A DNA stretch of 49,995 nt from a virus (IMGVR_UViG_3300048930_000674:1-49995), one strand, 5' to 3'. Numbered from the stretch's first letter, positions 1,860-49,995 are shown. The notes: generated by a model from the letters alone, not told the origin. Program-made: numbers and translations.

Positions 1860-4757
1860 ATGCTTCTCCTGCTCCTGCGCTTCATCCCGCGCGAGTACAC
1901 CGAAGCGCGCACCGACTCGGGCTCGGCGTCGTTCTCGACGTCGGTCGGGCTGTTCGCGCAGGCCGCTGACACCGAGTCCGCCTCCGCGTCCGACTCTGCT
2001 GCCGTCACTTTGGTGCGGGTCGGGGCGCGCACGGACGCCGCGACTGGCAGCGACGCAGCGACGACCGTCGCGACCCTGCTCGCCGCCGACACCGAGTCCG
2101 CGACCGCGTCCTCCTCGCAGGTCGCCGGGCAGCTCGCTGTCGCGTCCGACACCGAATCGGCCACGGCGTCCGAGTCCGAGGCGGTCACGACGACGCGCGT
2201 CGGCGCGACGACGGACATCGGCACCGCGACCGACTCCTCGACTCAGGCGTCGGTACGTGCGGGCGCTTGCACGGACACGGGCACGGCGTCGTCGGCGCAG
2301 TCGAGCGCCGCGACATTCGTGGCTGCGGACACCGAGTCGGCCACGGCGTCGGCGACCGAGACGATCGCGTGGCCGAAGGCGATCACGGAAGCGGGCACAG
2401 CAACCGAAGCACCGCTGCCCAACGCGATCCGCAACCCCGATGCGAGTCAGGGCGCAGCGGTCGGCGCGCCCGGCACCGCCCCGGACCTGTGGAATGTTCC
2501 GACCTCGACTGGGGGGCTTGCCCGAGAGGTCGTCGCGATCGGCGTCGATGGCAGCACGGGCCTGCCCTACATCGACATTCGGTGGGCTGGCACGACGGTC
2601 GGTACGTCGACCTCGCTTGCCAACTTCGATCAGCTCCTCGGCATTGCGGCCTCGCCGGGTCAGGTGTGGCGCACGACGGCGCGCGTGGCTCTTGTGGGCG
2701 GGAGCCTAGCGGGGCTGACGTCCATTCGCCTGTCGACGCTGTACCGCTGGTCGGGCGCGCAGCTCAACGAGTCTAGCCTTCACCTTCAGTCGACGCTCGA
2801 TGGCACGCTGCGGGAGTTCACGACCCCGTTCGCGATCGCCACCCGCACCGAGACGACGAACGTCGTCGCGCGCCTGACGGCGTACTACCCCGCCGGCACG
2901 GCGCTCGACTTCACGATCCGGTTGTGCGCGCCGAATCTGGAGCTGTTCGCTGCGCTCGCGACCACGACGCGCGTGGGTGCGGTCACCGACGCTGCCGCCG
3001 CCTCCGAGTCCGAGACGGCCTCCGTCGTCTACCCGAACGCGCGCACCGACACGGGCACGGCAAGCGAGTCGGCGTCGATCGCATGGCCGAAGGCGTTCAC
3101 GGAGTCCGCGACCGCCTCCGAGTCCGAGACGGTCAGCACGACGCGCGTCGGCGCTGACACTGAGTCGGCATCGGCGTTCGACTCCGCCACGACCGGCGTC
3201 GCCTCGCCGCGCGACCGCACCGACACCGGCACCGCGTCCGATACGCCAACCGCCACGACGACTCGCGTCGGCTCGGTCACGGAGGCAGCGACGGCTGGCG
3301 ACTCGGCTGTCGCGACGACGACTCGCGTCGGAGCCGTCACCGACGCCGCGAGCGCTACTCGCGCCAACCTCGTCACGACGACTCGCGTCGGGGCCGACAC
3401 CGAGGCGGCGGACGCCGGCGACACGGCGACAACCCTTGCGGCGCTCGGGTCGAGCCGCACCGATGCCGCGAGTGCAGCCGACTCCGCCGCGATCGCATGG
3501 CCGAAGGCGCAGACCGACGGCGCGACCGCAACGTCCTCCGTCAGCACGGCGCATGTCGCGCTCGCCGACGTCTCCGAGCCAGCCGCCGCCGGCGACGCCG
3601 CCGACGCAGGGGCGATCGCCGCCCGGGTGCGGACCGACAGCGGCGTGGCGTCCGACGCCGCCGCCGTCGGCTCGGTGCGCCCAGTCGCGATCACCTTCGC
3701 GGCCTCGGCGTCCGACTCGGCGAGCTCGTCCGAGACGAACGCCGACACCATCGTCATGGGCGCGGCGGCCGAGGATGTGCCGTCCTCGCTCATCGTCGCC
3801 AACGAGGCGCAGCTCGACACCGCCGGCGCCACGATGGACGCCGCCGGCGCCGCCTCATTCTTGGCCGCCCGGTCGGAGTCGGCATCCGCCTCGCTGTCGA
3901 TCGTCGTCGCCGCGGCCCTGCCCGCGCATACCGTCGACGAGGCGGGGGCCAGCGACACCAGCGACGCCGCCGCGATCGTCCCGGTCGTCAACGCCGAGGA
4001 GGCCACCGCGGGGTTCGCCGCCTCGACGGCGCTCATCCGTGCCGGCGCCACAACCCTTTCCGCCGCCGCCGCGCAGACCGCCGCCACGACGATCGAGGCG
4101 CAGGACGCCCTCCATGAGGCCGCCGCGGCATCGGATGCGCTCTCCTCCCGGCTCGATGCCGTCGCAACGGCTGTCGACGCGCTGGACGCGTCCGAATCGG
4201 GATCCGCTGGCTTCTCCTCGACCGACTGGACGATGGACGAGGCCGGGGCCGTGGTCGAGGCCCAGGCCACCGCTACGCGGCTCGGTGAGTCGGTGGACTC
4301 GGCTGGCGCCGACGTGTTCCTCGACAACCGGGGCGAGTTCGGAATCGACGCCGAGATGGCGGCCGCCGCCGGCGACAGCGCCGTCGCCAGCATCGAGTCG
4401 ACCAGGTCCAGTACCGAAGGGGCTGGCGCCGACATCACCGTCGCGACCTCCTCGGTGCTGTCCGTGACCTCGACCCAGGCGTCGCAGGCGTCGTCCTCGG
4501 AGGCCTCGCTCGCGCGATTCCTGGGCGCCGTGATCGAGTCGGTCGAGCCGTCGGCCTACCTCGAGACAGACCTCACGACGGGCCTGCGCCCGACGTTCGT
4601 GTTCCGCCGGAACGTCTTCGAGGAGGACCGCACGCTGGTACCCGATGTCGAGCCCCGAACGGTCGTGGCGCCCAGGCGGGACCGGGTCCGCAGGGTCGAC
4701 GCGGAGGACCGTACCAGCATCGCCCGCGACCGGCGTGTCGTGCGGCTCGAGGAGTGA
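1860..4757 (+). CDS. Giant Ala/Ser/Thr/Asp/Glu repeat protein with an inserted globular domain
   Basis: A 965-residue protein. Most of it is a degenerate repeat of about 20 residues built on TTRVGA, T-D/E, A/S-rich and D-S-A-T motifs. The DNA shows this too: a 17-bp unit starting ACGACGACTCGCG recurs at 3255, 3315 and 3375, exactly 60 bp apart. Residues about 185-360 break the pattern with a Trp/Tyr-containing segment (DLWNVPTSTGG to LDFTIRLCAPNLEL) that looks like a folded carbohydrate-binding-type domain. The last 50 residues are Arg/Asp/Glu-rich. Composition suggests an extended surface fibre. It lies just ahead of a fibre-tail adaptor gene. The role as a virion fibre is inferred. Confidence 0.85.
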   Translation: MLLLLLRFIPREYTEARTDSGSASFSTSVGLFAQAADTESASASDSAAVTLVRVGARTDAATGSDAATTVATLLAADTESATASSSQVAGQLAVASDTESATASESEAVTTTRVGATTDIGTATDSSTQASVRAGACTDTGTASSAQSSAATFVAADTESATASATETIAWPKAITEAGTATEAPLPNAIRNPDASQGAAVGAPGTAPDLWNVPTSTGGLAREVVAIGVDGSTGLPYIDIRWAGTTVGTSTSLANFDQLLGIAASPGQVWRTTARVALVGGSLAGLTSIRLSTLYRWSGAQLNESSLHLQSTLDGTLREFTTPFAIATRTETTNVVARLTAYYPAGTALDFTIRLCAPNLELFAALATTTRVGAVTDAAAASESETASVVYPNARTDTGTASESASIAWPKAFTESATASESETVSTTRVGADTESASAFDSATTGVASPRDRTDTGTASDTPTATTTRVGSVTEAATAGDSAVATTTRVGAVTDAASATRANLVTTTRVGADTEAADAGDTATTLAALGSSRTDAASAADSAAIAWPKAQTDGATATSSVSTAHVALADVSEPAAAGDAADAGAIAARVRTDSGVASDAAAVGSVRPVAITFAASASDSASSSETNADTIVMGAAAEDVPSSLIVANEAQLDTAGATMDAAGAASFLAARSESASASLSIVVAAALPAHTVDEAGASDTSDAAAIVPVVNAEEATAGFAASTALIRAGATTLSAAAAQTAATTIEAQDALHEAAAASDALSSRLDAVATAVDALDASESGSAGFSSTDWTMDEAGAVVEAQATATRLGESVDSAGADVFLDNRGEFGIDAEMAAAAGDSAVASIESTRSSTEGAGADITVATSSVLSVTSTQASQASSSEASLARFLGAVIESVEPSAYLETDLTTGLRPTFVFRRNVFEEDRTLVPDVEPRTVVAPRRDRVRRVDAEDRTSIARDRRVVRLEE

Positions 4758-6711: not shown

Positions 6712-6764
6712 GCGCACCGCCGTGCGCCTTCGGCCGGCGACGCTCCGCCGCTACAACGGCGGCC
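6712..6764 (+). promoter_or_regulatory. Putative Mor-dependent late promoter ahead of the protease
   Basis: A dyad GCGCAC-N4-GTGCGC at 6712-6727 is followed after 24 nt by TACAAC (6752-6757) and after 7 nt by an ATG (6765). The same element with identical spacing occurs at 10573 and 46241. The dyad would lie at about -53 to -37, where the Mor activator of phage Mu binds its middle promoter. There is no good -35 box, as expected for an activator-dependent promoter. Control by the Mor-family gene at 44292 is inferred. Confidence 0.72.
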
Positions 6765-6809
6765 ATGGTCCACATTCTTGAGCCCTCGCGACAGGGCGGC
6801 CCGGCGTGA
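6765..6809 (+). CDS. 14-codon leader peptide coupled to the protease gene
   Basis: ATG 6765 lies exactly 7 nt after the TACAAC box, the position occupied by the portal and tail-terminator start codons at the two sister promoters. The frame runs 14 codons (MVHILEPSRQGGPA) and stops at TGA 6807-6809, which overlaps the protease GTG (6806) as GTGA. This suggests leaderless initiation on the micro-ORF followed by coupled reinitiation on the protease. The peptide itself may have no function. Confidence 0.5.
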   Translation: MVHILEPSRQGGPA

Positions 6810-7744
6810 GGCAGCCGCTGATTCTGACCGCGCCGGTCGCCTTCGAGGCCGGCGGAGCCGCTCTCCCGAAGAAGCTGCGGGGCACGGCGTACTCCGGCGG
6901 ACGGGTGCCGGACCGCAACCTCGTGATCGATCTCGCGACGACCTCGATCACCACCCCCGCGCCGCTGCTGGCCGGACACCTGTCCGGGAGCGTCGTCGGT
7001 CGCATCACCCAGGCGAGCGTCGCCAGCGCTATCGCGATTGAGGGCGACCTGTACTCCGACATCGACGACGACGCGCGGGCGATCGCCCAGAAGGCTGCAC
7101 GGGGCCATCCCTGGCAGCTGTCGGTCGGGCTGTACGGCCACACCTGGGAGGACGTGCCGCCCGGCAAGACCGTGTCGGTCAACGGACAGTCCTTCGACGG
7201 GCCGATCACCGTTCTGCGCAACGGCGTCGTGCGCGAGGTCTCCATCGTGGCGCTGGGCGCGGATCCCGCTGCCGACGCCGCCTTCTTCAATCACCATCGA
7301 GGACGATCCATGTCCGAACAGAACGCCGCGGTCGCGCAGCTCGCGACCCTGACCGTCGAGCGCGACCAGGCGCGCGCCAACGTCACCCGCCTCGAGGCCG
7401 AGAACCGCACCCAGGCCGCGAGGATCACCGAGCTCGAAGGGCAGCTCGCCACGCTCACCGAGCGGGCCCGCGCGGCCGAGACCGCGCAGCGTACGACGGA
7501 CGTGCGCGCGATGCTCCAGGAGCTCGGCCTGGAGTTCAGCGAAGCGGCGGCCGCCCCGTACCTCGCGATGAGCGCCGAGGTCTTCGCCGGCGTCCGCAGC
7601 CAACTGTCCCAGCTCAAGCCGAAGCTGCCCGCGCACCTGGCGCAGTCGGTCGCCGATCTCGGTGCCGGCGGCGGCAGCGGGCAGCAGCCCGCGCCGGGAG
7701 GTCTGCTGCTGCAGACCGTCAAGGCCCAATTCGGCATCAAGTGA
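6806..7744 (+). CDS. Prohead protease-scaffold fusion (Mu gpI-like)
   Basis: A 312-residue protein with a GTG start at 6806. The N-terminal 165 residues look like a Mu gpI-type head maturation protease, with candidate catalytic His58 in LLAGHLSG and Ser106 in WQLSVG. Residues about 170-235 form a heptad-rich coiled coil (LATLTVERDQARANV, then LEGQLATL), followed by a Gly/Pro linker and a C-terminal capsid-binding-like tail. The protease would cleave the scaffold and itself during head maturation. Position between minor head and decoration genes fits. It is read from the promoter at 6712. Confidence 0.85.
   Translation: MRQPLILTAPVAFEAGGAALPKKLRGTAYSGGRVPDRNLVIDLATTSITTPAPLLAGHLSGSVVGRITQASVASAIAIEGDLYSDIDDDARAIAQKAARGHPWQLSVGLYGHTWEDVPPGKTVSVNGQSFDGPITVLRNGVVREVSIVALGADPAADAAFFNHHRGRSMSEQNAAVAQLATLTVERDQARANVTRLEAENRTQAARITELEGQLATLTERARAAETAQRTTDVRAMLQELGLEFSEAAAAPYLAMSAEVFAGVRSQLSQLKPKLPAHLAQSVADLGAGGGSGQQPAPGGLLLQTVKAQFGIK
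7310..7744 (+). CDS. Nested scaffold protein (in-frame internal start)
   Basis: An internal in-frame ATG at 7310 (residue 169 of the protease) is preceded by CGAGGA at 6-7 nt spacing. Initiation here gives a 144-residue protein made of the coiled coil and C-terminal tail only. Lambda (C/Nu3) and Mu (I/Z) both make their scaffold from such a nested start, so the arrangement is expected. The start site is seen in the sequence; its use is inferred. Confidence 0.6.
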   Translation: MSEQNAAVAQLATLTVERDQARANVTRLEAENRTQAARITELEGQLATLTERARAAETAQRTTDVRAMLQELGLEFSEAAAAPYLAMSAEVFAGVRSQLSQLKPKLPAHLAQSVADLGAGGGSGQQPAPGGLLLQTVKAQFGIK

Positions 7745-10572: not shown

Positions 10573-10625
10573 ACGCACCGCGGTGCGCCTACGGCGGCCG
10601 GCGGCCGGCCGGTACAACCCGTGGC
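10573..10625 (+). promoter_or_regulatory. Putative Mor-dependent late promoter ahead of tail genes
   Basis: Dyad ACGCAC-N4-GTGCGC (10573-10588), 24 nt, TACAAC (10613-10618), 7 nt, GTG 10626. The spacing is identical to the elements at 6712 and 46241, and the first 18 positions differ from them at only two. There is no Shine-Dalgarno sequence between the box and the start codon, which implies a leaderless message for the tail operon. Confidence 0.72.
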
Positions 10626-11069
10626 GTGATTGCCCTCGCCCCTGTCGTCGATCGCCTCCGTGAGCACTGCCCGTCGTTCAACGCGATCGACGGAGCCGCG
10701 GAGTTCTCCGCGATCGCGGATCGCGTCACGACCCACCCCGCAGCGTGGGTCGTGCCGCTGGCGGACGCCGCTGGCGAGAACCGCTTCGGCGCCGGCGTGG
10801 CGGTCGCGCAGCGCGTGGAGACTTCCTTCGGGATCGTCCTCGTCTGCGCGGACCGGTCCGATCGGCAGGGCGCCGCGGCGGTCGAGCTGCTCACGCGCCT
10901 TCGTCGCGAGGTGCTCTCCGCGGTGCTGGGTTGGGTGCCGGCCGACGGCGCGGCTCCGCTCGCATTCGTCTGTGGCGACGCGCTTCGGTTCTCGGCGGGC
11001 CTGACCTGGTGGCAGGACACCTACTCGACCGCGTGGGAGTGCCGCTCACTCCCCGGAGCTCCTTCATGA
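10626..11069 (+). CDS. Mu gp37-like tail terminator protein
   Basis: A 147-residue protein from GTG 10626, exactly 7 nt after the TACAAC box, with no ribosome binding site. The pattern MIALAPVVDRLREHCP, AWVVPLA..A..N..G.G..QRVE..F.IVL, LL..LR..V..AVLGW.P, and DALRFSAGLTWWQDTYSTAW is that of Mu gp37-like / phage tail terminator proteins that cap the tail and bind the head connector. It is the first gene of the tail operon. Confidence 0.82.
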   Translation: MIALAPVVDRLREHCPSFNAIDGAAEFSAIADRVTTHPAAWVVPLADAAGENRFGAGVAVAQRVETSFGIVLVCADRSDRQGAAAVELLTRLRREVLSAVLGWVPADGAAPLAFVCGDALRFSAGLTWWQDTYSTAWECRSLPGAPS

Positions 11070-35449: not shown

Positions 35450-35652
35450 GGGCACCGCTCCCAGTACTGGCCGTCGTCGAGCTCGCGGTCGGCGTAGTCG
35501 TCGTCGTCGCCGTAGCTCCACTCGGCGTACCCGTCGTCGCCGGCCTCGTCCTCGTCGTCGTCCGCGGCCTCGGGCGTGCGCGGGTCGAGCGGGTCGCCGT
35601 CGCACGCCGGCCAGGACGCCTCGTCCCCGAAACCTGGGACCGGGCCGCTCAC
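35446..35652 (-). CDS. Very acidic small protein (possible DNA mimic)
   Basis: A 68-residue protein with GTG start 35650-35652 (GTGA overlap). Residues about 26-62 are mostly Asp/Glu with Tyr and Trp (EAADDDEDEAGDDGYAEW, then DDDDYADRELDDG). The net charge is strongly negative. DNA-mimic anti-restriction proteins look like this, but so do other small acidic proteins; the function is speculative. Confidence 0.58.
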   Translation of the reverse strand: MSGPVPGFGDEASWPACDGDPLDPRTPEAADDDEDEAGDDGYAEWSYGDDDDYADRELDDGQYWERCP

Positions 35653-35903
35653 GCCGCGCTCCGCATCGCCAGGCCGCCCGAGCCACACAGGGCCTCGAGC
35701 CGGTCGTTCACGGCGCGCAGGCGGCTCACCGCCTTCGCGTGCACCGACTGCCCGTCCACCGCCTTCCAGTCCGGATGCGACAGCACCAGCACCGCCACCG
35801 CGATGTCCGCGCGCAGGCCCTCCAGCGTCTCGCGGTCCGCACCCGCCACAGCAAGTCCACCCTCGACCACCGCTTCCTCCTCGGCCCCGGTGAAGCGGGG
35901 CAT
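35649..35903 (-). CDS. First gene of the PL operon, probably leaderless
   Basis: An 84-residue protein. Its ATG (35901-35903) lies only 6 nt after the PL -10 box, so the message should begin at or next to the start codon. The sequence TCCTCC before it is not a ribosome site. The helical C-terminal half has AVSRLRAVNDRLEALC. No family recognised; its place first in the operon suggests an immediate early role. Confidence 0.65.
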   Translation of the reverse strand: MPRFTGAEEEAVVEGGLAVAGADRETLEGLRADIAVAVLVLSHPDWKAVDGQSVHAKAVSRLRAVNDRLEALCGSGGLAMRSAA

Positions 35904-35909
35904 GGAGGA

Positions 35910-35938
35910 AGATTAGCGAGCGCTATACGTCATGTCAA
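35910..35938 (-). promoter_or_regulatory. PL-like leftward early promoter
   Basis: On the minus strand TTGACA (35933-35938), 17-nt spacer, TAATCT (35910-35915): a near-consensus sigma-70 promoter. Operators flank or cover both boxes. It drives the operon from 35903 down to the integrase. Confidence 0.9.
35914..35925. promoter_or_regulatory. Repressor operator OL1-like
   Basis: TAGCG-AG-CGCTA, a perfect 5-bp dyad inside the PL spacer and overlapping the -10 box. It matches the sites at 37673, 37688 and 37712. Confidence 0.85.
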
Positions 35939-35950
35939 TAGCGGCCGCTA
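35939..35950. promoter_or_regulatory. Repressor operator OL2-like
   Basis: TAGCG-GC-CGCTA directly upstream of the PL -35 box, centred 25 bp from the first operator. Confidence 0.82.
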
Positions 35951-36849: not shown

Positions 36850-37662
36850 TCACGCCACCTCGCCCCGCCAGGCGAACACCACGCGCCCGAGCACGGCGAA
36901 CCGGTCGCGCTGGGCTGGCTCGACGCGCTCGGTCTCGTACTCCCGGTTGCTCGAGATCAGCAGCCACGCCCCGTCGGACTTGCGCTGCACGCGCTTGACG
37001 AGGATGTCCTCAGGCCCGCGCAGAAGGTAGATGCCATCCTGCCCGACCGACTGCACGCCGGTGTCGATCACCAGCATGTCGCCGTCGTCGAACGTCGGGC
37101 GCATCGAGTCGCCGAACGCCGTGACCAGCCGCAACGCCTGCAGACTGGTGATCCGCGCCGCCCCCAACTGCCGGCGCAGGTTCTCCTCGTTGACGCGCAC
37201 CAGCGTCACAACCTCGTTGCCGTCGTCCATGCCGCCTCGCCCCATCCTCGGGTACACACCCTCGTGCTTCTGGAGCCACATCTCACCCGGCCGCAGGCTC
37301 TCCAGTTGAGCTTCCTCGCCCGACTCGCCCGGTCGGGCGAGCGCGCCTCGCTCGATCGCAACGACGGCCGCGCCTGAAGGGGTCGGCGACGGGCCGGGGA
37401 TCACCTCGGTGACGGAACGTTCCGCGGCGGCGGCGCTTTCCGTGATCTCGGCAGTGTCGAGCCAGCCGGGGGGCATGTTCAGTGACCGCTCGATGTGGCG
37501 AGCGCTTTCCTCCGTCATGGTCCGAACCCCGGTGAACCACTGACTCACCTGGGAAGGGCTGCGCTTGATCGCGTTCGCGAGAAGGCGTGCATTGCCCTCG
37601 AAGCGTTCGTCGCGGAGTCGCTCGAGACGGGCAAGACGACGCTGTCGAACCTCTGCAGTCAT
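36850..37662 (-). CDS. CI-type phage repressor with S24 peptidase domain
   Basis: A 270-residue repressor. Residues about 24-64 form the XRE DNA-binding domain (NARLLANAIKRSPSQVSQWF). Residues about 150-265 form the S24/LexA-type domain, with Ser186 in AFGDSMRPT and Lys223 in ILVKRVQR as the dyad. I see no Ala-Gly or Cys-Gly dipeptide in the linker before Ser186, the usual self-cleavage site. It should keep the prophage silent by binding the five TAGCG-N2-CGCTA operators at PL and PR. Its ATG lies 6 nt after a TAAACT box, implying a leaderless PRM message. Confidence 0.92.
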   Translation of the reverse strand: MTAEVRQRRLARLERLRDERFEGNARLLANAIKRSPSQVSQWFTGVRTMTEESARHIERSLNMPPGWLDTAEITESAAAAERSVTEVIPGPSPTPSGAAVVAIERGALARPGESGEEAQLESLRPGEMWLQKHEGVYPRMGRGGMDDGNEVVTLVRVNEENLRRQLGAARITSLQALRLVTAFGDSMRPTFDDGDMLVIDTGVQSVGQDGIYLLRGPEDILVKRVQRKSDGAWLLISSNREYETERVEPAQRDRFAVLGRVVFAWRGEVA

Positions 37663-37674
37663 GGGGGGAGTTTA
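37663..37674 (-). promoter_or_regulatory. PRM-like promoter -10 for the repressor gene
   Basis: On the minus strand TAAACT (37669-37674) is followed by six C residues and the repressor ATG. No convincing -35 box is present, as is usual for promoters that need activation. The operator at 37673-37684 overlaps the box, so repressor can control its own synthesis. Confidence 0.6.
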
Positions 37675-37684
37675 GCGATGGCTA
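37673..37684. promoter_or_regulatory. Repressor operator next to PRM
   Basis: TAGCG-AT-GGCTA, one mismatch to the dyad. It overlaps the PRM -10 box; centre 15 bp from the next site. Confidence 0.78.
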
Positions 37685-37687
37685 ACA

Positions 37688-37699
37688 TAGCGAGCGCTT
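37688..37699. promoter_or_regulatory. Repressor operator overlapping the PR -35 box
   Basis: TAGCG-AG-CGCTT, one mismatch. It overlaps the first bases of TTGACG (37698-37703). Confidence 0.8.
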
Positions 37700-37727
37700 G
37701 ACGCGGAGATATAGCGCACGCTAATCT
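37698..37727 (+). promoter_or_regulatory. PR-like rightward early promoter
   Basis: TTGACG (37698-37703), 18-nt spacer, TAATCT (37722-37727). The -10 box is identical to that of PL. The cro ATG follows 10 nt later, leaving a leader of only a few bases. Confidence 0.88.
37712..37723. promoter_or_regulatory. Repressor operator in the PR spacer
   Basis: TAGCG-CA-CGCTA, a perfect dyad overlapping the PR -10 box, in the same relative position as the operator inside PL. Confidence 0.85.
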
Positions 37728-37737
37728 CCGGGCCACG

Positions 37738-38013
37738 ATGCAGCTCTCCGAACACATCAAGCGGAATCCCGGCGCCGGCACGCGCATCGCCAGGGAACTG
37801 GGCGTGAGCCTCTCCTACCTGTCGCAGATGGCTTCCGGTCATCGGCCCATCCCGGTGAAGACCGCAGTGCGGATCGAGGTGCTCACGGATGGCGCGGTGC
37901 CGCGTTGGGACATGCATCCCGACGACTGGCACCGAATCTGGCCGGAGCTGATCGACGCGCCCGGGGCGCCGGCGGTGCCGGCCGAGGGCGAGCGGCAGGA
38001 GAGGGCGGCGTGA
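37738..38013 (+). CDS. Cro/YdaS-like antirepressor
   Basis: A 91-residue protein, divergent from the repressor. Residues about 14-50 (GTRIARELGVSLSYLSQMASG, interrupted after ELG for length) form a helix-turn-helix of the Cro/YdaS type, followed by PIPVKTAVRIEVLTDG. The C-terminus is Pro/Ala/Glu-rich. It is the first gene of the PR operon and should repress PRM to favour lytic growth. Nearly leaderless message, without a Shine-Dalgarno sequence. Confidence 0.83.
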   Translation: MQLSEHIKRNPGAGTRIARELGVSLSYLSQMASGHRPIPVKTAVRIEVLTDGAVPRWDMHPDDWHRIWPELIDAPGAPAVPAEGERQERAA

Positions 38014-40425: not shown

Positions 40426-41492
40426 TTCGCGAGGGAATGCTGACGAGCGAGCGCGTGGACTCGCTCTCTGAACTGGCCGAGCTCTTCTACCGCCGCCTGC
40501 AGCAGGTCGTCGACGACCACGGTCGGTACTTCGCTCACCCGACGCACCTGCGCACCAACTGCTTCCCCGCGCGGATGGACCGCTACACCGACCTCCAGGT
40601 GCTCGGCTGGCGGCGGGAGTGCGAGGCCGTAGGGCTCGTCAGGGTGTACCAGGTGGGCCGGCTCGAGTACCTGGAACTGGCCGACTTCCGGCAGCAGATC
40701 AAGTCGAAGTCGAAGTTCCCGGACCCCGTAGACGGCCGACCGGTGTGCCCCCCGACACCTCCGTGTCCGACTGTCGAAGGGGCCGACTCACCCCCCGTAC
40801 ACGACCCGTACACGGACCGTGCACGGACCGTACACGACCCGTGCACGCTAGTCGTAGGCGAAGGCGAAGGCGAAGGCGGAGGCGCCGCGCGTGCGCACGC
40901 GTGTGATCCCGCGCCTGCGCACGCACGCGAGGAGCCGCCGCCGCCGCTGCCGCCGCCGCCGAAACTTGGACCTGACCCGCTCGAGCGGACCGGCGTGACC
41001 GTGCCGCTCGATCCGATCGACCCGGACCGCGTGGTGCCGATCCGCGCTGCCGAGCGCTTCGACCCCGGGGAGCCGACCCGGGAGGGGGTGATCGCGGCGT
41101 GGCTGATCGACCGCGAGCGGGCTGCGGGTCGCCAGACGCGGGGGCTGTCGGCGATGAACCCGCGGCTGCGGAGGTGGGTCGAGGACGGCGTGACGGACGG
41201 CGAGATCGCCGAGGCCTACCGGCTCGCGGTCGAGGCCCGGCTGGCGCAGGCGGACGGTTCGCCGCTGTCGATCGGGTTCATCGACGTGAAGCTGCGCGAC
41301 CTGCGGGCGAAGGCCGCAAGGCCAACGGAACGTCTGCCGGCGCGCCCCGGGCCATCGCCGTGGGAGCGCGATACGCGATCGATGCTCGACGAGGCCGATC
41401 GCATCGGGCTGAAGGTCAACGGGCAGTGGACCGCCGACGACCTGCGTTGGCACATCCGGCAGCGCCATCGGGCGCAGGGGAGAGCCGCATGA
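40410..41492 (+). CDS. Replication initiator (lambda O-like) carrying the origin
   Basis: A 360-residue protein with a strong GGAGGG ribosome site. Residues about 1-95 look like a winged-helix replisome organiser domain (ELAELFYRRLQQVVDDHGRY, then LQVLGWRRECEAVGLVRVYQ, then YLELADFRQQIK). A low-complexity middle (residues about 110-195, Pro/Asp/Gly/Glu) is encoded by DNA iterons. The C-terminal 150 residues include EGVIAAWLIDRERAAG and DDLRWHIRQRHRAQG, possibly contacting a host helicase or loader. As with lambda O, the protein probably binds repeats inside its own gene. Confidence 0.82.
   Translation: MPTRVIREGMLTSERVDSLSELAELFYRRLQQVVDDHGRYFAHPTHLRTNCFPARMDRYTDLQVLGWRRECEAVGLVRVYQVGRLEYLELADFRQQIKSKSKFPDPVDGRPVCPPTPPCPTVEGADSPPVHDPYTDRARTVHDPCTLVVGEGEGEGGGAARAHACDPAPAHAREEPPPPLPPPPKLGPDPLERTGVTVPLDPIDPDRVVPIRAAERFDPGEPTREGVIAAWLIDRERAAGRQTRGLSAMNPRLRRWVEDGVTDGEIAEAYRLAVEARLAQADGSPLSIGFIDVKLRDLRAKAARPTERLPARPGPSPWERDTRSMLDEADRIGLKVNGQWTADDLRWHIRQRHRAQGRAA
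40796..40901. repeat. Probable replication origin: five 11-bp iterons plus hexamer repeats and palindrome
   Basis: Five head-to-tail 11-bp units at 40796, 40807, 40818, 40829 and 40840 follow CGTRCACGRMC, the last ending CTA instead. One unit per helical turn puts all sites on one DNA face. Five hexamers of the AGGCGA type follow (40856-40885), then the perfect palindrome CGCGTGCGCACGCG (40888-40901). Iterons inside the initiator gene are the lambda-type origin arrangement. No obvious AT-rich unwinding element is next to them. Confidence 0.8.
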
Positions 41493-43306: not shown

Positions 43307-43416
43307 TGCTGACCAAAGTGCTCCGACGTTTTGGCCGCGAGCGTGTCGCTGCGGCGCTCGCCTACGCCGAGGAATGCCTCGGGCGCTTGCGCAACCAGCC
43401 GAAGGGCCGGACATGA
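43306..43416 (+). CDS. 36-residue basic micro-protein
   Basis: ATG 43306 shares a base with the preceding stop (TGATG), and the stop overlaps the RusA start (ATGA). The peptide MLTKVLRRFGRERVAAALAY then AEECLGRLRNQPKGRT is a basic amphipathic helix. The two coupled junctions make translation likely; role unknown. Confidence 0.55.
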   Translation: MLTKVLRRFGRERVAAALAYAEECLGRLRNQPKGRT

Positions 43417-43907
43417 CCACGATCGCATTCACCGTGCCAGGGGTTCCGGTCGCGAAAGGCCGTCCGATCGTCAGCACCCTGCGCGGCCGGCCGATGATGC
43501 GCACGCCGGCACGCACGGCGCGCTACGAGTCGCAGGTGGCGCTGTTCGCGTCGCAGGCGATGGCGGGCCGCGCGCCGGTCACGTGCGCGGTGATCGTGCA
43601 CATGGTCGCGGTGTTTCCGGTCGCGCCGTCGTGGCCGAAGCGCCGGCAGCGAGCGGCACTCGCCGGCGAGATCCGGCCGACCTGCCGACCGGACCTTGAC
43701 AACGTCGCGAAGGCTGTCGGCGACGGCTGCAACGGCATCGCGTGGGCCGACGACAGCCAGATCGTCGAGCTGCGCACCGAGAAGCGTTACGGCGAGGTAC
43801 CCGGCCTGCACGTGACGGTCTCGTGGGCGGGTGGAGAGTCCGATGTGCCGCCGCAGGGTGACCCCGCCACCGTGCAACTGTTGGACCCCGAGGACGTCTT
43901 CGCATGA
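43413..43907 (+). CDS. rusA: RusA-family Holliday junction resolvase
   Basis: A 164-residue protein. MTTIAFTVPGVPVAKGRP is the RusA opening. The catalytic core RPDLDNVAKAVGDGCNGIAW followed by ADDSQIVEL places Asp94, Asp96 and Asp113 as metal ligands. It resolves recombination junctions or branched replication intermediates before packaging. Coupled by ATGA to both neighbours. Confidence 0.93.
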   Translation: MTTIAFTVPGVPVAKGRPIVSTLRGRPMMRTPARTARYESQVALFASQAMAGRAPVTCAVIVHMVAVFPVAPSWPKRRQRAALAGEIRPTCRPDLDNVAKAVGDGCNGIAWADDSQIVELRTEKRYGEVPGLHVTVSWAGGESDVPPQGDPATVQLLDPEDVFA

Positions 43908-44077: not shown

Positions 44078-44289
44078 TCCGCGGAGTCCCCACCGGCGAT
44101 CCCCGGGTCGCGACGTTCGTGCTCACGGTCCGCGAGCGCTGCGCCGGCCGCGCCAGCCACGACCGGCCGCTCTACGACATCGCCGACAGCCTTCGCGCGG
44201 AATGGCGCCGGCGCGGCGAACTCGTGAATCTCGCGCCGTCCGACGAGGAACTGATCGAGCGCGAGATCCGGCGGTGCACCGGGACCTGA
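44074..44289 (+). CDS. Hypothetical early protein before mor
   Basis: A 71-residue protein (PRVATFVLTVRERCAGRASH, then LYDIADSLRAEWRRRGE, ending LIEREIRRCTG). ATGA-coupled to the previous gene and 2 bp before mor. Unknown function. Confidence 0.65.
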   Translation: MIRGVPTGDPRVATFVLTVRERCAGRASHDRPLYDIADSLRAEWRRRGELVNLAPSDEELIEREIRRCTGT

Positions 44290-44291
44290 CG

Positions 44292-44693
44292 ATGAGCGCG
44301 ATGCTCGAGGAGCTGACGCTGGTCATCGGTCACGCCGCCACGCGCCGCCTGGTCGAGGTCTACGGCGGGCGCAACATCTTCCCGCCGATGCTCGGCGCTA
44401 CCGGCGCACGCTGGAACCAGGTGCGCGAGATCGTCGGCGAGGCCGCGGCCGACGCACTGTGCCGGCGCTACTGCGGCACACGGCTCTACATCCCGCTCAA
44501 CGTCGCCGCCAGGCGCGCGTGGCAGGAACGCGAGATCGTACGGCTCTCCGCCGAAGGACTCTCGGACGACGAGATCGCCGACAAGATCGCGGTGATGATC
44601 CGCCCGACGGCGAGCTGGGTCGCACGTGTGCGCCGGCGGGCGACAAGGGAGGCAGAAAGCGCCGCGTCCACGACTGTCGTGATGGACTTGTGA
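44292..44693 (+). CDS. Mor-family transcriptional activator (late gene switch)
   Basis: A 133-residue protein. MLEELTLVIGHAATRRLVEV followed by YGGRNIFPP, then GEAAADALCRRYCGTRLYIP and a C-terminal HTH (REIVRLSAEGLSDDEIADKI) match the Mor/C activator family of phage Mu. Mu Mor binds a dyad at about -51 to -36 of its promoter and recruits RNA polymerase without a -35 box. Three elements with that geometry lie at 6712, 10573 and 46241. It is the last regulatory gene of the rightward early operon, just before terminase. Confidence 0.85.
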   Translation: MSAMLEELTLVIGHAATRRLVEVYGGRNIFPPMLGATGARWNQVREIVGEAAADALCRRYCGTRLYIPLNVAARRAWQEREIVRLSAEGLSDDEIADKIAVMIRPTASWVARVRRRATREAESAASTTVVMDL

Positions 44694-44694
44694 C

Positions 44695-44997
44695 ATGGGT
44701 ATACCGAGAACAGCATTCCAGCCCGGACACGTGAAGGTCGGCGGGCGCAAGAAGGGCACGCCGAACAAGGCGACGGCCGACATCAAGGCGCTTGCCCGGG
44801 TCCACGGGCCCGAGGCGGTCGAGAAGCTCGTCGAGCTGATGCGCACCGGCCCCGAGAAGGTGAGGCTCGCGGCGGCCCGCGAGCTCCTGGACCGCGGTTA
44901 CGGCAAGCCGACACAGGCGGTCGAGGTCTCGGGCCACGAGGGCGGGCCGCTGCTCGACTGGACCGCGCTGCTCGCCAAGCCCCCGACGCAGGAGTGA
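44695..44997 (+). CDS. Terminase small subunit-like protein
   Basis: A 100-residue protein. FQPGHVKVGGRKKGTPNKAT is the DUF5681-type opening common in phage small terminases; then a helical region (AVEKLVELMRTGPEKVRLAA, then ARELLDRGYGKP). Directly upstream of the large subunit with coupled stop/start. It probably recognises phage DNA for packaging. Confidence 0.75.
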   Translation: MGIPRTAFQPGHVKVGGRKKGTPNKATADIKALARVHGPEAVEKLVELMRTGPEKVRLAAARELLDRGYGKPTQAVEVSGHEGGPLLDWTALLAKPPTQE

Positions 44998-46226
44998 TGC
45001 TGCACGCCGGGCAGCAGTCGATCCTGAGGTCGGCCGGGAGGTTCAACGCCGTCGCCTGCGGCCGCCGCTTCGGCAAGACGACCCTCGGCGTGGCGATCGC
45101 CGCCCACGGCGCACCGCATTCGCCAGGTGGGCTGCTCTCTGGGTACTCCGTCGGATGGTTCGCCCCGACGTACCGTCTGCTGGACGAGGCATGGCGTGCG
45201 GCCCGGGGTTTCCTTCGCAACCTCGTCGTGCGCACCGATGCGCAGCAGAAGCGGCTCGAGCTCGCCACCGGCGCCGCGTTCGACTTCTGGACTCTGGAGG
45301 ACGTGGATGCCGGCAGGGGGCGGAAGTACGGGCTGGTGATCGTGGACGAGGCCGCGATGGCCCGGCACCTCGAGTCGACCTGGAATGCAGCGATCCGACC
45401 GACCCTCACCGACTACCGCGGGGCCGCCTGGTTCTTCTCGACCCCGAAGGGCCGCAACTACTTCTGGCAGCTGTACCAGCTCGGCACCGAGGACTCAGCA
45501 CAATGGCGCGCGCACCATGCGCCCACCGCGGCCAACCCGCACATCGATCCGGCTGAGATCGAGGAGGCCAGGCGCAACCTGCCCGAGAGGATCTTCGCGC
45601 AGGAGTACCTCGCCGAGTTCCTGGAGGACGGTGCCGGAGTCTTCCGGCGGGTCAGCGACGCGATAGACGACGAGCTGACCGCGATCGTCCCGGTGAGCCA
45701 TGACGACGGGTCGGGAAGCGCCTACGCGATGGGGGTGGACTGGGGGCGTCACAACGACTGGACCGTCATCACCGTGATCGAAGCCCCATCGAACCGGGTC
45801 GTCGCGTTCGATCGCTTCAACCGCATCGAGTACGCCTTCCAGATCGAACGGCTGCGGGCGCTCCATTCCCGGTTCCCGGCGGCGCAGATCGTTGCCGAGG
45901 CCAACGCCATGGGCGAACCGCTGATCGAGCAGCTGCAGCGCGCGGGGCTGCCGGTGCGCGCCTTCACCACCACCAATGCCTCGAAGGCCGCCATCATCGA
46001 GTCGCTGTCACTCGCGCTCGAGCAGGGGGAGCTGCGCATCCCCCGGATACCGGAGCTGGTACGCGAGCTGCTCGCGTTCGACCAGGAGCGGCTCGCCTCG
46101 GGCGCCGTCCGCTACGGTGCCCCGCCGGGGCAACACGACGACTGCGTGATGAGCCTCGCTCTCGCCTGGAATGCGGCCGCAGCCGCCGGTGCGCCGTCCG
46201 TCGGCTTCGCCCGGCGCCCCCGCTGA
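44997..46226 (+). CDS. terL: Terminase large subunit
   Basis: A 409-residue packaging ATPase-nuclease; ATG 44997 in TGATG with the previous stop (GTG 44994 alternative). Walker A CGRRFGKTT (residues 21-29), Walker B GLVIVDEA (112-119, Asp117-Glu118) and coupling motif FFSTPKGRN are clear. The RNase H-like nuclease shows AMGVDWG (Asp248), AEANAMG and QHDDCVMSLALA. It pumps DNA into the prohead and cuts it. Headful or cos cutting cannot be decided from the sequence alone. Confidence 0.95.
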   Translation: MLHAGQQSILRSAGRFNAVACGRRFGKTTLGVAIAAHGAPHSPGGLLSGYSVGWFAPTYRLLDEAWRAARGFLRNLVVRTDAQQKRLELATGAAFDFWTLEDVDAGRGRKYGLVIVDEAAMARHLESTWNAAIRPTLTDYRGAAWFFSTPKGRNYFWQLYQLGTEDSAQWRAHHAPTAANPHIDPAEIEEARRNLPERIFAQEYLAEFLEDGAGVFRRVSDAIDDELTAIVPVSHDDGSGSAYAMGVDWGRHNDWTVITVIEAPSNRVVAFDRFNRIEYAFQIERLRALHSRFPAAQIVAEANAMGEPLIEQLQRAGLPVRAFTTTNASKAAIIESLSLALEQGELRIPRIPELVRELLAFDQERLASGAVRYGAPPGQHDDCVMSLALAWNAAAAAGAPSVGFARRPR

Positions 46227-46240
46227 CCCGACCGCGCGCA

Positions 46241-46293
46241 GCGCACCGCCGTGCGCCTGCCGCGTGCGGCACTCGCTCGGTACAACCCTGCGG
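46241..46293 (+). promoter_or_regulatory. Putative Mor-dependent late promoter ahead of the portal
   Basis: Dyad GCGCAC-N4-GTGCGC (46241-46256), 24 nt, TACAAC (46281-46286), 7 nt, GTG 46294. The geometry is identical to the elements at 6712 and 10573. It occupies the only gap in the terminase-portal junction. Confidence 0.75.
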
Positions 46294-47838
46294 GTGACTG
46301 CCCGCCGCCCCGTACCCGCGCTGCTCGCCGCGGCGCCTCGTCCCGTCCCGACGCGCACCGAGCGCGGCGGCCCCGTCGGCATCTACCGCAACGCCGCCTC
46401 CGCGGCCGACGCGATGCTCGGCGCGCTGGTCAGCCTGCCCGAGATCGATTCCGTCCTGGCGCGAGCCGGCATCCACCGCCACCAGCTGCGCGAGCTCGAG
46501 TTCGACGACGAGATCGCCGCTGCCCTCGACACCCGGCGCGATGCGGTGCTGTCCACGCCGTGGCGTCTCGAAGGCGAGGACGGGGAGCGCACGGTCTGGG
46601 TGATGGAGCAGCTCGAGCCGTGCATCGAGTCGATCCTGCGGGGAGCCTGGGCGGCGGTGCCGTACGGCTACTCGGTCATGGAGGCGATCTACGCCAACGT
46701 CGAAGGAGGGCGGATCGGGCTCGCGAGCTGCGCGGAACGCCCGATGGAGTGGTTCAAGCTGCAGCGCGATGGCCGGGTGTTCGCCACGATCGGCGGCCTG
46801 CCGGAGTTCGAATGCGACCAGGTCCTGAAGTGGCACATCACGCGCCGCAACCCGACATGGCGCAACCCGGCCGGCGACGCGCTGCTCTCGCGCCTGTACT
46901 GGCCGTGGCACTTCCGCACCAACGCCTGGCGGTTCTGGCTCGAGTTCCTCGAGCGCTTCGGCATGCCGCTGATGCTCGGCAAGGGCGCCCAGCCCCAGAA
47001 GCTCGCCGACGCGCTCGTGGCGATGGGGGCGTCCGCGGCGATGGCGGTCGGGCTGAACGAGGACGTCCAGGCGGTCACCTCGGGGGCCGCCGCCGGCGAG
47101 TTCGAGCGCGCGGAGAACGCGCTCGCGCGCCGCATCCAGAAGCTCGTGCTCGGTCAGACCCTGACCACCGACGTCGACGGCAAGGGCTCATACGCGGCCG
47201 CCCGTGTCCACGACCTGGTGCGCCAGGACCGGCGCAACGCCGACCTGCGCCTGGTGCGTCCCACGGTGCAGCGGATCGTCAACGCCCTGTGGCTGCTCAA
47301 CCGCTTCCCGGGCCGCCCGCCCGTCTTCCTGCAGCAGGACGGCCAGGGGCTTCAGCTCGAGCGGGCCGAGCGCGACGAGCGGCTGGTGAAGACGGGCATC
47401 CTGCAGCTGTCCGAGTCGTACTTGCTGCGCACCTACGACTACGAGCAGGGCGACATCTCCATCCCGGCCGCCCCGGCGCCCCGCGCTCCCGAGGACGCCG
47501 AGCGTGATTCGAGGAGCCGCGCCGGCGCGGGACGCCAGGCTGCTGCGGGGGCAGTGACCCTCGCCGCTGCTCCTGCCTTCACCGCGAGGCAGATGGAGAT
47601 CGAGGCCCTGGGCGACGTGCTGCTCGAGGAGGGCGGGGCGCCCGTTCCGAAGGCGGCGATCCATGCCGCGATACGCGCGGCCCGTGACCCCGAGGACCTG
47701 GCCGAGCGGCTCGCCATGCTCCTGCCGGCCCTGCCGGGCAGCGCCTTCGAGGAGCTGCTGGCCCGCGCGCTCTTCGCCGCCGACCTCATCGGCTACGTCC
47801 AGGAATCGGTCAACCGACCGGCACTCACCTCCGAGTAA
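46294..47838 (+). CDS. Portal protein (DUF935, Mu gp29-like)
   Basis: A 514-residue protein. GTG 46294 is chosen: it lies after the terminase stop, 7 nt after TACAAC, and the first residues then read VTARRPVPALLAAAP. The DUF935 core is recognisable: LRELEFDDEIAAALDTRRDA, GWAAVPYGYSVMEAIY, FKLQRDGR, then W.FRTNAWRFWLEFLERFG and P..LGKGAQP. It forms the dodecameric portal through which DNA enters and leaves. The C-terminal 100 residues are Ala-rich and helical. Confidence 0.92.
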   Translation: MTARRPVPALLAAAPRPVPTRTERGGPVGIYRNAASAADAMLGALVSLPEIDSVLARAGIHRHQLRELEFDDEIAAALDTRRDAVLSTPWRLEGEDGERTVWVMEQLEPCIESILRGAWAAVPYGYSVMEAIYANVEGGRIGLASCAERPMEWFKLQRDGRVFATIGGLPEFECDQVLKWHITRRNPTWRNPAGDALLSRLYWPWHFRTNAWRFWLEFLERFGMPLMLGKGAQPQKLADALVAMGASAAMAVGLNEDVQAVTSGAAAGEFERAENALARRIQKLVLGQTLTTDVDGKGSYAAARVHDLVRQDRRNADLRLVRPTVQRIVNALWLLNRFPGRPPVFLQQDGQGLQLERAERDERLVKTGILQLSESYLLRTYDYEQGDISIPAAPAPRAPEDAERDSRSRAGAGRQAAAGAVTLAAAPAFTARQMEIEALGDVLLEEGGAPVPKAAIHAAIRAARDPEDLAERLAMLLPALPGSAFEELLARALFAADLIGYVQESVNRPALTSE

Positions 47839-48473: not shown

Positions 48474-49142
48474 ATGCCCAGAACCGCGTGCGACGACCCG
48501 ATTATCGGGAATGTCTTCGGTCGCCTGCTGGTGATCGACGTCGGCCGGGCTGTCGCCGGGCCCCCGGCAGGGCGAGTGCGGACCGCGATCTGCCGCTGCC
48601 TGTGCGGCAACGACGCGCTCTCTTTCCAGCAGATCGGAAACTTGAATCACGGCAAGGTCCGGTCCTGCGGCTGCCTGAAGTCCGAGGTCACGCGCGCCAG
48701 GCAGACGAAGCACGGACACGCGAGGGCAGGCGTGCGTCGCACGCCAGAGTACGAGGCCTATCTCGCCATGCTCGGCCGCTGCCACAACCCTAACGACGCC
48801 GACTACCCGAATTGGGGTGGGCGAGGTATCGAGGTGTGTGAGCGGTGGCGCGGCAATCCGTCGGCGTTCCTCGTGGACATGGGTCCGAGGCCGTCGGCGC
48901 AGCACTCGCTCGGCCGGATCGACAATGACGGCCCCTATTCGCCCGAGAACTGCCGCTGGGAGGTCAAGGTCGAGCAGATCCGAAACCGGAGCAACACGAG
49001 GCGTATCGAGTTCAACGGCGAGACGCTGACGCTCAAGGAGTGGGCCACTCGCCTCGGGGTGAAGTACATCACGCTCTACATGCGATTACGCGAAGGCTGG
49101 CCCGTCGAGCGCGCACTGACCACCGGCGGCGCGCATGGCTGA
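48474..49142 (+). CDS. Free-standing HNH homing endonuclease
   Basis: A 222-residue protein with GGGAG before ATG. N-terminal Cys ribbon (CRCLCG at 40-45 and CGC at 65-67), then the HNH region YEAYLAMLGRCHNPND, GGRGIEVCERW, and HSLGRIDNDGPYSPENCRWE. The C-terminus (FNGETLTLKEWATRLGVKYI, then LREGWPVERALT) is a DNA-binding helix-turn-helix module of the NUMOD type. It is less GC-rich than its neighbours, and its 3' end overlaps the next structural gene. It probably arrived as a mobile gene and cuts sites in related phages. Confidence 0.85.
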   Translation: MPRTACDDPIIGNVFGRLLVIDVGRAVAGPPAGRVRTAICRCLCGNDALSFQQIGNLNHGKVRSCGCLKSEVTRARQTKHGHARAGVRRTPEYEAYLAMLGRCHNPNDADYPNWGGRGIEVCERWRGNPSAFLVDMGPRPSAQHSLGRIDNDGPYSPENCRWEVKVEQIRNRSNTRRIEFNGETLTLKEWATRLGVKYITLYMRLREGWPVERALTTGGAHG

Positions 49143-49995
49143 CAACGTCACGGTCGACAACGGCACGGGCTCGGACTACGTCGTCGCGACCGACGAGGTC
49201 GGCGCGCGCCACATCCAGATCGTCAAGCTCGCCCACGGCGCGGACGGGGCGCTCGATGGGCTTGCCGACGACGCGAGCCCGCTGCCCGTCAACATCCACT
49301 CGCCCGCGCAGGAGGGGTTCAGCTACTCGCGGGCGGGAGTGATCGCGCAGAACTCGGTTCTCCTGTCGATCGATTGCACGAAGCTCCGCGCGCTGTCCAT
49401 CCAATGCACCTCGATGGGCACTACGGGCGTCGTGACGCCCGAGTGGAGCAACGACAACGCCACGTGGGTCGGCACGACGCTCGCGCCCACCTCCAGCTCT
49501 TCCGCCGGCGTCGCCACGACCTTCAACGCGGCAGGGCTGTGGACGACGCATGTCGTGGCGCGCTACTTCCGCTTGCGCCTGTCGACCGCGACGACGGCTG
49601 GCACGACGACGATCTACGTGCAGGGGTTCAACGTCCCGATTGACCTGCCCTACGGGTCGATCGCGTCGATCGCGTCGAGCATCACGCCGGGCACCGGATC
49701 GTCGAACCTTGGGAAGGCGGAGGACACAGCGCACGCGACCGGCCATGTCGGCGTGATGGCGCTGGGCGTGCGCAACGATGCGTTCGCCACGCTTGCCACC
49801 ACCGACCTCGACTACACCCCGCTCGCGGTCGACGGCGCGGGCCGGCAGGCAGTCAACGTGTCGCAGGTAGGCGGTGCGGCACTCGCGCTTGGCGCCGCGG
49901 CGACCGCCGCGTCGATCCCGGTCAACATCGCCAGCGACCAGACCGTGCCCGTCACGGCGACCGGCGCGGTCGCCGACGGCGCTGCGGCGTCGGGG
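49135..49995 (+). CDS. Virion structural protein, N-terminal part (continues at base 128 of the window)
   Basis: ATG 49135 overlaps the HNH stop by 8 nt. The frame is open to the window end and continues through the 127-bp overlap to TGA at 755-757, giving 496 residues in total. This part starts MADNVTVDNGTGSDYVVATD, contains an Asn/Thr/Ser-rich beta region, and includes the first copy of the duplicated SSNLGKAED...GVMALGVRND motif. See the entry at 1-757 for the C-terminal part. Confidence 0.78.
   Translation, partial: MADNVTVDNGTGSDYVVATDEVGARHIQIVKLAHGADGALDGLADDASPLPVNIHSPAQEGFSYSRAGVIAQNSVLLSIDCTKLRALSIQCTSMGTTGVVTPEWSNDNATWVGTTLAPTSSSSAGVATTFNAAGLWTTHVVARYFRLRLSTATTAGTTTIYVQGFNVPIDLPYGSIASIASSITPGTGSSNLGKAEDTAHATGHVGVMALGVRNDAFATLATTDLDYTPLAVDGAGRQAVNVSQVGGAALALGAAATAASIPVNIASDQTVPVTATGAVADGAAASG
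49869..49995. repeat. 127-bp terminal direct repeat, right copy
   Basis: Identical to bases 1-127. It lies within a coding sequence and shows no attachment-site or cos-like feature, supporting an assembly overlap. Confidence 0.97.

Follow-up and report, generated by a model that had tools for sequence, protein, structure and literature searches.

A Mor-family gene and predicted late promoters ahead of portal, head and tail operons in an apparently integrating siphophage

Genome layout and the Mor-family gene

The window, by which we mean the whole 49,995-nucleotide stretch of viral DNA analysed here (IMGVR_UViG_3300048930_000674), begins and ends alike, bases 1-127 being an exact direct repeat of 49869-49995 (127 bp), which makes the record a complete genome, either closed into a circle or terminally redundant, with a length of 49,868 bp. 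Family searches of the proteins identified tyrosine integrase, RecT and exonucleases among the leftward genes, and Rep-like, ParB-like and RusA proteins among the rightward early genes, while the lysis-lysogeny region (36850-38013) holds an S24 CI-like repressor gene (36850-37518, - strand) and a Cro-like gene (37738-38013, + strand). With its integrase, S24 repressor and RusA, the phage has an integrating, lambda-like layout, and among the proteins scanned there was no match to a transposase of the DDE A/B type, the mark of a Mu-like transposable phage. Within the Rep-like ORF (40437-41492) lie four tandem 11-bp iterons (CCGTRCACGRM, 40795-40847), which mark a likely replication origin.

Of the genes that come next, those for RusA, Mor, the terminases, portal, protease and tail terminator are on the + strand. 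A RusA-like resolvase gene (43413-43907; PF05866 3.8e-31, phrog_140 9.3e-40) directly precedes the mor block, mor itself occupies 44274-44693, and the small and large terminase subunits (44731-46226; TerL phrog_2 2.6e-37, TerS phrog_15261/2538) lie between mor and P1, the first of three copies of a DNA element. P1 is followed by a Mu-type portal gene (46294-47838; PF06074 3.2e-63, phrog_113 1.6e-84), an HNH endonuclease gene within the head module (48474-49142), the gene for a repeat-rich 965-aa protein, gene F, and then the second copy, P2, with the genes for head maturation protease (6806-7744; phrog_3244 7.6e-21), which is the first full-length gene of its operon, decoration protein, major capsid and connectors. 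The third copy, P3, precedes the tail terminator gene (10626-11069; PF23840 7.2e-35), the first of the tail operon. The 965-aa protein (1860-4757), made mostly of degenerate 57-60 nt repeats, is T/S/A/D-rich and without a PHROG match; its gene is an insertion between the portal region and gene F, a place where two relatives (L056 and G002) also carry long insertions.

What is known of Mor and C comes mostly from phage Mu. A prior reading of the sequence only (the sequence-only reading) had placed a Mor-family gene at 44292, and this membership is confirmed by profile comparisons: the product, which starts at ATG 44292 or GTG 44274, matches PF08765 (Mor; E=2.3e-7, 31.2 bits vs a cut-off of 24.9) and phrog_836 ('late transcriptional activator', 5e-20), and an alignment of 17 relatives matches the Mu Mor structure 1rr7 (E=2.9e-6) across the second GG-YIP unit and the helix-turn-helix (HTH). 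The profile of these relatives matches Mu C weakly (0.004). An AF2 monomer model of the protein reached a pLDDT of 91, and a Foldseek search of this model against the PDB gave no significant match, 1rr7 included. The architecture consists of two helix-helix-strand units (IG..A..L....GG..YIP) and then the HTH, the N-terminal unit being tandemly duplicated in this Mor group (window 44292-44693 and the alignment) and single in Mu Mor and C.

Lambda-type phages carry Q in the slot after a RusA-type gene and ahead of the late block, and it is in this slot that mor sits. A Q-family gene found no match among the early rightward ORFs scanned, the small ORFs being covered in part. The Mor-type protein thus shares with lambda Q both its genomic slot and its presumed role as late switch, but differs in that the window has three separate predicted initiation sites whereas lambda has one antiterminated transcript. 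The proposal that a Mor-type switch stands in place of Q is supported by the family assignment, by the three exact elements described below and their Mu-like geometry, by the lack of a detected Q-family gene, and by a promoter layout mostly confined to Mor-carrying relatives.

Three copies of one element

The arrangement RCGCACNNNNGTGCGC-N24-TACAAC has exact matches at 6712-6757, 10573-10618 and 46241-46286, all on the + strand, and none elsewhere in the 49,995 bases. In full, the element reads RCGCAC-N4-GTGCGC-N24-TACAAC-N7-start codon, the codon being GTG, GTG or ATG. A first-order Markov model of the window gives a chance expectation per strand of 0.11 dyads, 3.5e-6 for the dyad with TACAAC, and 9e-8 with the start codon added; three elements of unchanged spacing, as had been claimed, are confirmed. 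The claimed near-identity over the first 18 bases is likewise borne out (18/18 in two copies, 16/18 in the third), as is the divergence beyond, the remaining 22-nt spacers being identical at 12-14 of 22 positions. Relaxed dyads (two mismatches or fewer) gave 52 matches in the window and are no commoner than chance, so the signal is the exact dyad with its fixed spacing and not dyads in general. An exact scan of IMG/VR for the element returned 16 matches, which we rejected as unrelated, since they lie mostly in lower-GC contigs and none has a correctly placed start codon; the exact dyad was found in no other phage there.

At P1 the dyad GCGCACCGCCGTGCGC (46241-46256) and the -10-like hexamer (46281-46286) stand ahead of the portal GTG at 46294, and at P3 the dyad ACGCACCGCGGTGCGC (10573-10588) and hexamer (10613-10618) stand ahead of the tail terminator GTG at 10626, in both cases with 7 nt after the hexamer. 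At these two the start codon is that of the operon's first gene. At P2, which has the P1 dyad at 6712-6727 and its hexamer at 6752-6757, the codon 7 nt past TACAAC is ATG 6765, which opens not the protease gene but a 14-codon mini-ORF (6765-6809) where the protease message is predicted to begin; the protease GTG (6806) lies inside it, 41 nt past that ATG. The GTGA overlap of the two would make translational coupling from a leaderless start possible.

The dyads might instead be RNA hairpins, that is, terminators or processing sites at operon ends. Two of them lie 12-15 nt past a stop codon, and two relatives (L129 and L131) have long inverted repeats at the place of the dyad; however, no T run follows the dyads, the nearest called gene upstream of 6712 ends 455 nt away, and a hairpin gives no reason for the fixed spacing to TACAAC and start codon. 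We hold this explanation to be quite improbable, and turn back to a reading of the dyads as operator DNA.

The distance from dyad centre to -10 is 32.5 nt in all three copies, in keeping with the about 31-32 nt of a Mu Pm-type promoter. In Mu, a Mor dimer occupies a 16-bp dyad that runs from -51 to -36 (centre -43.5) in a promoter without a -35, where it takes over from the -35 contact and interacts with both alpha and sigma (PMC4390567, PMC4287176); we use these published values, since a simple search of the Mu record for dyads did not locate Pm. With +1 set at the start codon, the window dyads span -53 to -38 (centre -45.5), and a +1 two bases 5' of the codon would reproduce the Mu positions exactly, such that the Mu Mor-like placement previously proposed is upheld. 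By reading, no TTGACA-like hexamer occupies the -35 position of the three copies, though the -10 TACAAC is present, in contrast to an early leftward promoter of the same phage. The latter (35904-35945, - strand; TTGACA-N17-TAATCT) is sigma70-like and lies 6 nt 5' of the ATG of gene 35649-35903, likely a second kind of leaderless start.

On these features and the comparison with relatives below, we assign a probability of roughly 0.8 to the reading in which the portal, head and tail operons run from three Mor-activated, -35-less, leaderless promoters. The Mor-family protein would be encoded last in the early rightward operon and, as a dimer, would occupy GCGCAC-N4-GTGCGC. This 16-bp dyad would stand in for the -35 box, with Mor recruiting host RNA polymerase to the weak -10 (TACAAC) and transcription beginning at the start codon or no more than about two bases from it. 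From such a start it would follow that portal and tail terminator are translated from leaderless messages, and the protease by way of a leaderless mini-ORF. The head and tail regulon proposed earlier would run from portal to tail; the terminase genes would not belong to it, since they lie 5' of the first element and are probably read from the mor transcript, and so the regulon would not comprise all late genes.

Relatives and the divergence of protein and site

Relatives were retrieved with the capsid protein (12 viral and 9 genome loci), a portal alignment (45 viral loci) and a TerL alignment (80), whereas neither Mor nor portal as a single query against IMG/VR, nor Mor against phage records, found any match. 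A Mor gene is present in 16-17 of 40 portal relatives, and in most it lies close to terminase or portal. In many of them the portal gene is directly 3' of mor and an element is found at the protease only, from which it looks as though the protease promoter is the core of the system and the portal and tail promoters are additions. Two relatives (L058:6025-6426 and L059:3017-3673) carry a further Mor copy upstream, single-unit and Mu-like, and may therefore have a Mor-to-Mor cascade resembling the one from Mor to C in Mu.

New support for the Mor reading is strongest in the comparison with relatives. Closest among those found, L056 is 64% identical in TerL, 58% in portal and 68% in capsid, but only 24% in Mor. 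Superficially it is a close relative that keeps mor and has lost the element, an outcome named beforehand as contrary to the proposal; the window dyad is indeed missing, yet three elements with another dyad, GTTAGACGCTGTC(G/A)C(C/T)CTATG, occupy exactly the three homologous places with the spacing kept, each followed 19 nt on by a -10-like hexamer, with the start codon another 6-7 nt away. A very different Mor with a different shared dyad fits co-divergence of protein and site. Yet another dyad occurs in G002 (L065), as CTGACGGCCGTCAG 5' of portal and CTGACGAGCGTCAC 5' of protease; L098 has GTGAC-N6-GTCAC before the protease and a one-base variant (ATGAC) before another gene, a layout of 5-6-5 as in Mu; and AGGGAA-N4-TTCCCT-N24-CAGACT-N7-ATG in L058 matches the window geometry to the base. 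An ungapped 24-mer repeat search 5' of portal gave noise, except in the window and L056/L061.

These comparisons bear upon whether the elements are merely conserved recombination linkers between gene modules. They do mark the borders of modules, and 18 bp are nearly the same in all copies while the flanks differ, but in relatives the sequence is wholly changed while position and spacing are kept, and a -10-like hexamer and leaderless start, neither of which a linker needs, are retained; we consider linkers the least probable of the alternatives, and very improbable. Less remote, albeit still unlikely, is that the elements are real late promoters whose dyad is bound by a host factor, by the Cro- or CI-like protein, or by some phage protein that went unrecognised, with Mor acting elsewhere. 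The phage does encode further HTH proteins. However, no exact dyad lies near 36.8-38 kb, the repressor/Cro region where CI/Cro operators are expected, by which we ruled out the dyads as such operators, and a host factor leaves unexplained why dyads differ between phages, agree within one, and are associated with mor.

For activation by Mor, the reading we prefer, the protease starts of 11 Mor-positive and 21 Mor-negative genes were compared after removal of duplicates. Over all offsets, palindromic pairing in the Mor-positive set peaks 45.0 nt 5' of the start (0.545 vs 0.262), and none of 2000 shuffles reached the observed mean pairing. Palindromes with 5 or more of 6 positions paired and their centre 43-46 nt 5' of the start were found for 7/11 Mor-positive and 3/21 Mor-negative genes (Fisher p 0.007), a band picked after the first loci had been inspected, with the prediction then written down before the TerL set was examined. 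Of that set, L129 and L131 fit, having strong palindromes centred at 45.0; L139, which at first resembled a third replicate, was left out of the count, as its 'Mor' is a different HTH protein. Three loci with a Mu-like single-unit Mor (L144, L145 and L148) have the palindrome centre near 41.5, outside the band. With the TerL additions the counts are 9/14 vs 3/21 (p 0.003). Against the association, the Mor-positive L062 and L080 have weak dyads at the protease, and L068, in which no Mor was detected, has a palindrome at 43.5. A Shine-Dalgarno match of at least 4 nt at the protease start is found in 0/11 Mor-positive and 15/21 Mor-negative genes (p 1e-4).

Distances between Mor HTH sequences correlate with distances between dyads (Mantel r 0.44, p 0.003, n=11), although the N-terminal part correlates nearly as well (r 0.34, p 0.013), and hence shared ancestry explains part of the correlation. 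Recognition helices of the form R(H/Q)I(R/I)NI (L058, L095, L097, L129) pair roughly with TTC(C/A)C or TTCCG half-sites, and those of the form (H/Q/S)(I/V)(Y/Q)R (G002, L056, L098) with GTCAC half-sites. We lean, by a small margin over even odds, towards a widespread and hitherto undescribed system of late-gene control among integrating siphophages that have Mu-type portals, in which a two-unit Mor and private dyads would co-evolve as one orthogonal pair per lineage and serve one to three leaderless-message promoters.

Relation to known switches and significance

The predicted system resembles Mu Pm and Mor in its Mor-family HTH protein (dimeric in Mu), in a 16-bp dyad lying some 31-32 nt upstream of the -10, with no -35, and in the location of the activator gene towards the early operon's distal end. 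It departs from Pm in having one dyad before three structural operons and starts that look leaderless, and from Mu Mor in the two tandem N-terminal units and in a phage that integrates by tyrosine integrase. The Mu late promoters that C activates are lys, I, P and mom, with PI ahead of protease gene I (PMC4461284), and in the window a Mor/C-family protein is likewise predicted to serve several late operons, P2 and the protease promoters of Mor-positive relatives being the counterparts of PI. Unlike Mu, however, with its two-step cascade of Mor and then C, the window was found to have one Mor-type protein, and P1 (portal) and P3 (tail terminator) fall outside the set of four late promoters of Mu. 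The window thus joins a single Mor-type protein to a geometry like that of Pm and to more than one predicted late promoter, the protease promoter among them.

Mor-like genes have been annotated in the non-transposing siphophages Stenotrophomonas phage Suso, Xanthomonas FoX1-5, Achromobacter Mano and Burkholderia Mica, although the literature searched holds no published target sites for them. Like the window, these phages have a Mor-family 'late transcriptional activator', and Suso has a Mu-type portal as well, but in Suso and FoX1 the Mor-like gene precedes lysis genes and not terminase or portal. Because such genes were already known, and because the Mu protease gene I promoter requires C, the 'new regulatory system' of the sequence-only reading was too strong a term; what is new lies in the predicted target sites, in late promoters predicted to be leaderless, and in the way Mor and dyad change together.

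Mor-like genes outside Mu carry annotations without targets; here candidate Mor targets can be named from sequence alone in about a dozen phages. As the geometry is constant while dyads and recognition helices change, the protein-DNA code of the Mor family becomes testable, and the set of Mor proteins and dyads offers orthogonal activator-promoter pairs as well as a natural collection for the study of partner change in switches. If co-divergence is true, close relatives can differ in their activator-operator pair and yet keep the rest of the structural module. Furthermore, the set indicates that a Mor/C-type head-protease promoter is common to Mu and to integrating lambda-like siphophages, and hence that the late switch has moved between replication lifestyles.
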